Assembly: GCA_001803635.1 (NCBI GenBank) | Contig: MHDU01000034.1 | Location: 1-63,605, forward strand | Length of the DNA: 63,605 bases | Direction: 5' to 3' | From: Nitrospirae bacterium GWB2_47_37 | GTDB taxonomy: Bacteria > Nitrospirota > Thermodesulfovibrionia > Thermodesulfovibrionales > Dissulfurispiraceae | Part shown: positions 45,349 to 48,908 of the stretch, piece by piece | Layout: every line of letters starts with the position of its first letter | How positions within the stretch are numbered: position 1 is the first letter of the stretch | Notes under the pieces: generated by a model | What the model saw: only the letters and a program-made list of their open reading frames with translations | Databases searched by the model: none | Told to the model about the DNA's origin: nothing | Translations under genes and position numbers: made by a program

Positions 45349-45882
45349 TTATTGCTGATCATTTTTCAACAGCATCAAAAGGTTTCTCGCCGCCATAAAA
45401 AACTTCAAATATTTTTCGTCCTGATAATCCCTGTAGGTATTGATGTGGGGAAGGAAACCGCCGTGCTGGAATATAAGAGTTATCTCCGCGTAAATGCCGT
45501 CCCTCAGGTAAATCCTGTGCGAGTAATCCTTTGTGGAAGCTAATACCAGCTTTGCCGGGGTAAGATAGCCGGGGTCGAGATTGATAGTCCTTTTGCCGTT
45601 GACGGCAAGCGTATCCTCGATGCTGCTGGTCGCCAGTTTTATGGATGCAATGGCGTCCTGTTCGATAAGACCCTTAAAAAACATGAAGCGGCGGTAAAGG
45701 GGCTCTCCCATCTCCTTCCGGTAACGATGAGAGGAAAAATCCCATTTCATCTGCGGCGTCTCCATAACGATTTCGCCGAAATGCCTTTCGAGGAGAGATT
45801 GCGCCTCAGTGTAGTAATTCTCTTTTGTGAAGAATGTCCCGACAAACAAAAGCGCTTTTTCAGGAGGGGTAGGAGATACCAT
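45349..45882 (-). CDS. DUF4416 protein
   Basis: A 177-residue DUF4416 protein: an N-terminal PPEKALLFVGTFFTKENYY, a central FMFFKGLIEQDAIASIKLAT and NLDPGYLTPAKLVLASTKDYSHR, then RDGIYAEITLIFQHGGF. The family is restricted mainly to anaerobes and thermophiles of the Nitrospirota/Desulfobacterota/Firmicutes type and has no known function. It begins 4 nt after the TlpA-like gene stop. Confidence 0.88.
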   Translation of the reverse strand: MVSPTPPEKALLFVGTFFTKENYYTEAQSLLERHFGEIVMETPQMKWDFSSHRYRKEMGEPLYRRFMFFKGLIEQDAIASIKLATSSIEDTLAVNGKRTINLDPGYLTPAKLVLASTKDYSHRIYLRDGIYAEITLIFQHGGFLPHINTYRDYQDEKYLKFFMAARNLLMLLKNDQQ

Positions 45883-45886
45883 CGCC

Positions 45887-46414
45887 CTACCGCTCTTTTA
45901 CGAGCTTCTCTATTGCGGCCTTGATATCAGGCGAATCCCACTGCACCGGGCCTATGATCTTCTGCCTGATAATCCCCTTTGCGTCTATTATGAAAGTCTC
46001 CGGAACGCCGGATATCCTATATTCCCTCGCTATATTCTTGTCGTCTATCAGAACGGGAAAATTTAAACCGTTAGCCTTCATGTATTCCACGGCCCTTGAA
46101 GGCTCGTCATTGAAAAGCACCGAGACAAATACGAAACTCTTATTTTTCCTTTCGGCCTCCACGAGGCCCTGAATGGATGGGTTCTCCATCCTGCAGGTGT
46201 CTCACCACGACGCCCAGAAATGAAGGAGGACGGGCTTCCCTTTCAAATCCGACAGCTTCCATGTCCTGCCTTCCGTATCTTTCAACTCAAAGGCGGGAGC
46301 ATCGAGTCCTGCGGCGGCGTGTTTCTGCGGCTGCTCTCCGGTTTTAGCAAGGAGAAGCACCGCTGCGATCCCTATTGCAAAAACAATCGATAAGACTACT
46401 CCTTTGTTCTTCAT
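45887..46414 (-). CDS. TlpA-like thioredoxin, probable selenoprotein (UxxC)
   Basis: Read through the in-frame TGA at 46202-46204, this is a 175-residue envelope thiol-redox protein. An N-terminal TM/signal anchor (VVLSIVFAIGIAAVLLLA) is followed by DAPAFELKDTEGRTW and GKPVLLHFWASW, then the TGA, then DTCRMENPSIQGLV and GVPETFIIDAKGII. The TGA occupies exactly the first Cys of the CxxC motif (U71-D-T-C74). A hairpin fitting a bacterial SECIS lies just downstream. Both halves share one frame, so conventional gene finding gives two false proteins (46202-46414 and 45887-46189). A nonsense mutation or error is the alternative. It lies downstream of clpC. Confidence 0.85.
46168..46197 (-). promoter_or_regulatory. 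SECIS-like hairpin after the TGA codon
   Basis: Starting 4 nt after TGA: CCTG, CA, GGATGG, loop AGAAC, CCATCC, ATT, CAGG. A perfect 6-bp upper stem and a 4-bp lower stem are separated by a small internal loop. The apical loop starts 16 nt after TGA and has G at its second position, both fitting the published bacterial SECIS rules as I recall them. Confidence 0.7.
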
Positions 46415-46454
46415 CCATTACCCCTTAATTATTTATTACAGGCAGGTTATAAAC

Positions 46455-48908
46455 CTAATTCACGGATACCAGCATCGAATCTTCGGCTTCGACAAATTCA
46501 ATCTTATCCTGTTCGAGCACGACCTTCACCACAGGCGTGTTTTTGAATTTGCCCTTTAATATCTCTTCGGAAAGCTGGTCTTCTATCTCCTTGTAAATGG
46601 CCCTTCTCATGGGACGGGCGCCGTATGTAGGCTGATAGTATTTGTTGAGCAGCCATTCCTTGACCTCAGGAGACACGTCCACGGTCAGGGCATGCTCCGT
46701 AAGTTTCCTGTTCGTCTCCGCTAGCAGAAGGTCTACTATCGACAGCAGATGCTCCTTTTCGAGCTGGTGGAAAACCACTGTTTCATCAACGCGGTTCAGG
46801 AATTCCGGATTGAACGTCTTTTTCAATTCGGACAGTACACTGTCCTTCATCTTCGTATGAAGATCCCCTGACGATGCACGGTAGAAACCGAGCGGAGTAG
46901 CCTTTTCGATGATACGCGCGCCCAGATTTGACGTCATAATGATGATGGCGTTTCTGAAATCGACCTTTCTGCCGTAACTGTCCGTAAGCACTCCTTCGTC
47001 CAGTATCTGAAGCAGCATGTTGAATACGTCGTGATGCGCTTTTTCTATCTCGTCGAACAGGATTACCGCATATGGCCTTTTGCGTATCTTCTCGGTCAAC
47101 TGCCCGCCCTCTTCGTAACCCACGTAGCCCGGAGGCGCTCCGGTAAGGCGGGAGACATTGAACCTCTCCATGTATTCCGACATGTCGAGCTTAATGAGGG
47201 CGTTTTGGTCATTGAACATAAATTCGGCCAGCGCCTTTGCAAGCTCCGTTTTTCCGACGCCCGTCGGGCCGAGGAAGAAGAACGAACCGATAGGTCTGTT
47301 CTTGCTCTTAAGGCCGGCCCTCGACCTTCTTATCGCCTTCGATACCGCCTTTACGGCGTCGTCCTGCCCGATTATCCTCATGTGGAGGGTTTCTTCCATT
47401 TTTAATAGTTTTTCGGTTTCGGTTTCCTCGAGTTTGTATAACGGTATGCCGGTCATCTTAGAAACCGTATATGCTATGTCATCTTCTTCCACGACCGGAA
47501 CCTCTTTATTCAGGGAATCCTTCCATTTCTTGTACTGAAGCTCGTATATTTTTTTGAGACGGTCTTCCTGTGTCCTTATGGACTGCGCTTTTTCGATGTC
47601 GTGAAGCCTCACGTAAAGGCTCTTTTCCTTCGCGAGCTGGATCAGTTCGGTTTCCATGTCTCTCAGTTCCTGCGGGGTAGTCGCCCTCTTCAGCTTAAGC
47701 CTCGAACCCGTTTCGTCAACAACATCTATCGCCTTATCAGGCAGATACCTGTCGGTTATATAGCGGTCCGAAAGTTTCGCGGCGGCGGTAATAGCCTCAT
47801 CGCTGATTTTCACCTTGTGATGGCTCTCATACTTCGGCCTTATGCCTTTCAAAATTTCTACGGTCGTCTCCTCCGTCGGAGGCTGGACATTAATAGGCTG
47901 GAATCTCCTTTCAAGCGCGCCGTCTTTCTCTATATACTTCCTGTATTCGTCGGGCGTAGTAGCGCCGATGCACTGCAATTCTCCCCTTGAAAGCGCGGGC
48001 TTAAGCATATTAGACGCGTCGACCGAGCCTTCGGCGGCTCCCGCTCCGATAAGGGTATGGAATTCGTCCACGAACAGAATTATACTTTTATCGGATTGTA
48101 ATATCTCGCGCATTACGGCCTTGAGCCTCTCCTCAAACTGGCCCCTGTATTTCGTACCGGCGATGAGCGAGCCGAGATCGAGGGAGATTATCCGTTTCCC
48201 GATAAGGCTGTCCGGAACATCTCCTACTACGATCTTCTGGGCAAGGCCTTCGACTATAGCGGTCTTGCCGACGCCCGGCTCTCCGATTACGGCAGGATTG
48301 TTCTTAAGCCTTCTGCCCAAGACCTGAATCACGCGCTCTATCTCGTCCTCCCTGCCTATGACGGGGTCGAGTTTCCCTTCGACGGCCAGCAATGTAAGGT
48401 CCCTGCCGAATTCGTCGAGGGCGGGCGTATTGCTCTTTCTGCGCTCCTTTTGATGCGTCTGTTGAAATTGCGGTTTAATTGCGAGATTTATCGTCAGTTG
48501 GCGCGCGCCGAGCAGGTTTGCGCCGAGGTTTCTCAATATCTTGCCGGCAATGCCTTCGTCTTCCCTTATAAGCCCTAAGAGCAGGTGTTCGCTCCCGATA
48601 TAGTTATGGCCCAACAAGCGGGCTTCTTCAATGGAAAGTTCGAGCACCTTTTTCGCGCGGGGGGTAAACGGGATGTCTCCGAAGGTAAGGACATTGCTTC
48701 CGATGGGTAGATTCCTTTCCACTTCGAATCTTATCTCGTCTATCGACAACCCCATCTTTTTAATTATTGTAATGGGAACGCTGTCTTCTTCTCTCAATAT
48801 AGCCAAAAGGAGGTGTTCGGTGCCTAAATAATCGTTATTTCTACGCTCCGCTTCCTCTTTGGCGTATATTATTATCTTCCTTCCTCTTTCTGTAAACTTC
48901 TCAAACAT
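46455..48908 (-). CDS. clpC: ATP-dependent Clp protease ATP-binding subunit ClpC
   Basis: An 817-residue Hsp100 unfoldase. A double Clp-N repeat spans about residues 1-140. D1 ATPase has [18 protein letters not shown] and [19 protein letters not shown]-like middle segment at about 420-460 marks ClpC rather than ClpA or ClpB. D2 has [20 protein letters not shown] and [16 protein letters not shown]. It feeds substrates to ClpP. An AAAGGAGC site is 7 nt before the ATG. It is divergent from priA and upstream of the TlpA-like gene. Confidence 0.95.

Follow-up and report, generated by a model that had tools for sequence, protein, structure and literature searches.

A "Prx-like thiol:disulfide oxidoreductase" (PF00578, with a UxxC or UxxU motif; WP_010940744.1) is listed among predicted selenoproteins (PMC9312934, PMC13188914), a Prx-like selenoprotein is recorded for anaerobes that include Geobacter (PMC1794560), and Prx-like UxxC selenoproteins have been reported from sea-water metagenomes (PMC1088965, PMC2398784). 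A UGC-containing TlpA disulfide reductase family selenoprotein has also been described and corresponds to cd02966 (PMC13188914).

The gene analyzed here lies in a stretch of 63,605 nucleotides from Nitrospirae bacterium GWB2_47_37 (the window). It shares with the Prx-like selenoprotein the PF00578 domain, selenocysteine (Sec) as the first residue of UxxC and the prevalence of Cys among homologues, but it comes from Nitrospirota and can be placed in that subfamily purely by domain and motif. The window protein and the UGC-containing selenoprotein are both TlpA/ResA-like; the motif of the former, however, is UxxC (UDTC) rather than UGC, and its score against the respective model, NF041054 (WAxxUGC ResA-like), is 61.5 bits compared to a cut-off of 300. 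The Cys-type ResA/TlpA/DsbE (CcmG) proteins have in common with it the sequence family, the position of the redox pair and the N-terminal anchor, and differ in that the window protein has Sec in place of the first Cys. That the window gene adds an example to an already known selenoprotein type (PF00578, UxxC) is well supported, and a largely uncultured phylum thereby gains a well-supported selenoprotein gene. Among the papers listed for the phylum or a genus name together with selenoprotein or selenocysteine, which include two general reviews, no title names a TlpA selenoprotein of Nitrospirota.

Reading frame and protein family

The tlpA/resA-like frame (Table 1) yields 175 residues when TGA is translated as U, terminates with TAG and contains a single in-frame TGA, at codon 71, within the motif WASWUDTC. 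An earlier note on this DNA had described a frame that continues across one TGA, with the strand left unstated; translation bears this out and places the frame on the minus strand. The note had further claimed that the protein is TlpA-like on both sides of the TGA and that the TGA occupies the position of the nucleophilic Cys. Both claims hold: the 175-residue protein matches PF00578 (E 1.5e-25; 90 bits, with a cut-off of 26) as well as PF08534, its structural relatives are TlpA, ResA and DsbE (PDB 3kcm, 7.2e-29), and residue 71 falls on the first Cys of CxxC in the two alignments shown, that to PDB 3kcm among them. The solved relatives already fix the fold. None of the NCBIfam models listed for the protein, including the ResA model NF002854 (98.5 bits against 170), reaches its curated cut-off, and the relatives returned by a plasmid search are all below 60% identity. 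The hydrophobic N-terminal segment that is seen directly in the sequence, at about residues 6-22, suggests a membrane anchor and a domain located outside the cytoplasm; such an anchor is a feature of the ResA/TlpA/DsbE (CcmG) family. A protein of this type would easily be missed, or cut in two, by annotation.

Table 1. Positions of the tlpA-like gene, its sequence features and its neighbors in the window.
Feature	Coordinates	Strand	Basis
tlpA/resA-like gene	45887..46414	minus	Translation through one TGA; PF00578 and PF08534; PDB relatives ResA/TlpA/DsbE
In-frame TGA, codon 71, predicted selenocysteine, first position of UxxC	46202..46204	minus	Translation; TGA/Cys exchange in orthologues
TGC codon, second (putatively resolving) Cys of UDTC	46193..46195	minus	Translation; role inferred from family
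Predicted bacterial SECIS hairpin	46168..46197	minus	Lower stem of 4 bp, upper stem of 6 bp, AGAAC loop
ClpC/ClpB-like ATPase, upstream neighbor	46455..48908	minus	ORF list; Clp family matches
DUF4416 protein, downstream neighbor	45349..45882	minus	PF14385, 5.3e-56

Orthologues and the distribution of the TGA codon

Orthologues defined by sequence and gene order were detected in 28 of the 31 genomes of the window's family (L033-L060), the other three (G010, G016 and G027) giving only weaker matches; two weaker family matches that lack the gene order (L061 and L062) were excluded from the 28. The earlier note had proposed to look for homologues with either Cys or TGA at codon 71, and both kinds are present: the codon is TGA in 6 orthologues and TGC or TGT in 22. 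The TGA forms comprise all three genomes of the window's genus and three of the four genomes of one other genus (g4). The gene for the ClpC/ClpB-like ATPase is found upstream in 27 of the 28 loci (the exception is L049, and L035 shows just 32 residues of clpC), and the DUF4416 gene follows tlpA downstream in every one of the 28; with neighbors constant to this extent, the Sec and Cys forms occupy the same chromosomal place.

The three closest named relatives among the 9 loci translated out of 17 matched are all from Nitrospirae metagenome assemblies, two with TGA at the same codon (93% and 83% identity) and one with Cys (42%). Across the order, 176 genomes were searched and 160 had a match at 1e-30; among the matches listed, an inner TGA is present in the six forms and in G020; the latter was rejected as a seventh TGA form, its TGA being located off the active site in a frame that has Cys at the motif.

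Upstream of the TGA, the six TGA forms have dN/dS values of 0.10-0.31 when compared pairwise (15 of 15 pairs); downstream of it, the values are 0.03-0.37 (13 of 15 pairs, with 2 not computable). Purifying selection acts on both sides of the codon. These values bear on the possibility that the locus is a broken tlpA gene in which a nonsense mutation or a sequencing error turned a Cys codon into TGA. A single substitution leads from TGC or TGT to TGA, and the window's own genome (2.47 Mb, 98.45% complete) is an assembly of 81 contigs; against this, the identical TGA is present in five other genomes, which represent two genera and include a single-contig genome, selection extends downstream of the TGA, and the upper stem of the hairpin is kept. 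Under these circumstances, a broken gene is very improbable and, given the recurrence of TGA at codon 71 in the five other genomes, a base-calling error does not appear plausible. We give equally little credence to a two-gene reading, in which an exported peptide cut short at the TGA is followed by a distinct protein of 100 residues, initiated at the ATG within the hairpin. An ORF (45887-46189) does exist for the latter, but the thioredoxin-fold match spans the TGA, the 22 Cys orthologues have one frame, and the downstream piece would have no N-terminal anchor and would lack both the nucleophile and the initial portion of the fold.

The downstream hairpin

Under the preferred reading, that of a single gene with UGA decoded as Sec, the hairpin downstream of the TGA is a candidate SECIS element. 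Its position and shape are as given in the earlier note, with the first nucleotide 4 nt after the TGA (Table 1). The published bSECIS model specifies a loop of 3-9 nt, a stem of 4-16 bp, a distance of 16-37 nt between UGA and loop and an MFE of at most -7.5, and also a G within the first two loop positions (PMC13188914). In the window copy, the loop is 5 nt (AGAAC) and begins 16 nt past the TGA, the upper stem is 6 bp, and the 42 nt that follow the TGA fold at -14.9 kcal/mol. When the minimum-energy loop is used, the G is missing from three of the six TGA forms (G006, G008 and G009); a scan that requires the loop G recovers in-range stems of 6, 6 and 4 bp, respectively, although these may be other hairpins.

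The 6-bp upper stem is kept in all six TGA forms. All 5 distinct TGA rows have it paired, with a single GC-to-AU double change and a single change from UA to UG among them. In the Cys orthologues (10 of 22 counted) the upper stem is mostly not kept, 50% of its cells being paired. G006 and G008 have a disrupted lower stem, and the covariation does not go beyond that of shuffled alignments, 78 to 96 of 500 of which reach the observed value. The median MFE over 42 nt is -13.9 kcal/mol for the six TGA forms (-10.6 to -17.8) and -4.7 kcal/mol for the 22 Cys forms (Mann-Whitney p 0.0002, with relatedness ignored); two Cys forms, G021 and G024, fall within the range of the TGA forms with -12.3 and -11.3 kcal/mol. 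Shuffling gives z of -1.9 for the window's copy and -1.4 to -4.6 over the six TGA forms, and values of -2.1 to -3.4 occur among the Cys forms. As to the level expected by chance, 12% of the 4337 codons in ten window ORFs precede a perfect in-range stem of at least 6 bp with a G at loop position 1 or 2, and 1.4% of the 42-nt windows fold as stably as the one after this TGA. The only Rfam match in the scanned region (45800-46500, E up to 10), to sR48, was dropped as far below the gathering score, so that the hairpin is without support from known RNA families. Taken alone, the hairpin is weak evidence for a selenoprotein.

Five codons past the TGA, within the stem, lies an ATG in all six TGA forms, compared to two Cys forms of 22 with Met (G002 and G003); the stem would appear to have imposed Met at this position. 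Synonymous differences per codon pair among the TGA forms amount to 0.22 in the 14 codons after the TGA and 0.30 further on, and six Cys forms show the opposite trend, 0.45 near and 0.33 further on (no significance test in either set). With Sec and Cys forms cleanly divided at a single syntenic locus, the gene offers a good natural case in which to study how a changed Cys codon and a SECIS hairpin are acquired jointly.

Selenocysteine machinery and proposed function

The absence of selA, selB or selC from the genome had been named in the earlier note as an observation that would contradict the decoding of UGA as Sec, and a search for these genes and selD had been proposed. All four are present in the window's genome: a tRNA-Sec with the anticodon tca is above the Rfam cut-off (contig C13), and SelA (625 bits, cut-off 268), SelB (391 bits, cut-off 242; contig C59) and SelD (323 bits, cut-off 125) all score beyond their thresholds. 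This complete set and the same TGA in five other genomes support the reading of UGA as Sec. Nitrospirae are mentioned in the reviews (PMC9312934, PMC13188914) in connection with selC overlapping selB; here, the tRNA-Sec and selB are found on separate contigs. Given that SelA is encoded in 27 of the family's 31 genomes, among them G007 and every one of the six with TGA, the machinery alone does not predict the Sec form.

A separate observation concerns SelD (L085:3112-4026), which is itself a selenoprotein candidate with one in-frame TGA; its motif, AGUAAK, agrees with UxxK, which is given as the motif of SelD proteins that contain Sec (PMC9312934).

Decoding of UGA as Cys or Trp by an unusual tRNA would suit the Cys of the orthologues, at least for a Cys-inserting decoder, but is exceedingly improbable in the presence of a complete Sec machinery and with UGA also serving as an ordinary stop, in that 2 of the 11 window ORFs examined, one of them of 855 residues, end in TGA (the ORF list excludes inner TGA by construction, and the absence of inner TGA from it carries no evidential weight).

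The tlpA-like gene is thus very probably a real selenoprotein gene. We have high confidence that it encodes a membrane-anchored extracytoplasmic TlpA/ResA-like oxidoreductase in which Sec replaces the nucleophilic Cys, with UGA decoded via SelB and the hairpin. SelB would deliver Sec-tRNA(Sec) to the UGA, with the hairpin 4 nt downstream as a guide, and recoding would yield the full 175-residue product. The N-terminal helix would then anchor the protein, and the UxxC pair would reduce disulfides of exported proteins and could in turn be re-reduced by a CcdA/DsbD_TM-like membrane protein, for which there is one match in the window's genome. From known SelB decoding and the TlpA/ResA family, we infer these steps, namely Sec insertion, the location of the protein, its redox role and substrates, the direction of electron flow and the partner.

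History of the Sec form and related redoxins in Nitrospirota

In a tree for which the U/C column was masked, a branch with 100/99 support separates the six TGA forms from all others. As they belong to one supported clade, a single Cys-to-Sec conversion would be the simplest reading. The fourth genome of genus g4, G007 (L038), has Cys at the same locus despite the presence of SelA. When compared in 60-column identity bins with the six TGA forms and four Cys forms, G007 is closer to the Cys forms in the bin that holds the motif (78-86%, versus 65-68% to the TGA forms), and in columns 300 to 479 mostly nearer the g4 TGA forms (78-91%), with the g4 values scattered over 55-90% in the last bin. This mosaic is suggestive of possible recombination or a return to Cys. 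G007 branches immediately outside the TGA clade in the tree, with weak branch support and apart from its own genus; this placement does not discriminate between G007 having lost Sec and the TGA form having been transferred.

Across the phylum, the DNA pattern for FWAxWUxxC has 30 matches in 29 of 395 genomes, and the same pattern read backwards has none; the latter is a loose control in which base content is kept but coding context is not. Loci were available for 15 of the 30 matches; 13 of these are open on both sides of the TGA and show TlpA-like similarity, and they consist of the six window-gene orthologues and seven other redoxins. We tentatively consider it possible that exported TlpA-like redoxins have changed from Cys to Sec repeatedly in Nitrospirota, which would make the phylum a hot spot of such conversions. 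The locus described here would then represent a recent single conversion beside syntenic Cys sisters, in which the new SECIS forced Met at a stem codon and G007 reverted to Cys, perhaps via recombination.

The remaining two loci, L066 and L067, were rejected as TlpA-like; they have neither a frame open on both sides nor TlpA similarity and look like chance matches. The seven other redoxins (L068-L070 and L077-L080) are TlpA-like, carry a TGA in frame where the motif has its first Cys and, judged by similarity, are not orthologous to the window gene. Scans of two of them also gave matches to ResA-like models below the cut-off. The motifs of the seven are USYC, UPFC, UPIC, UPYC, UPHC and, in two cases, USWC.
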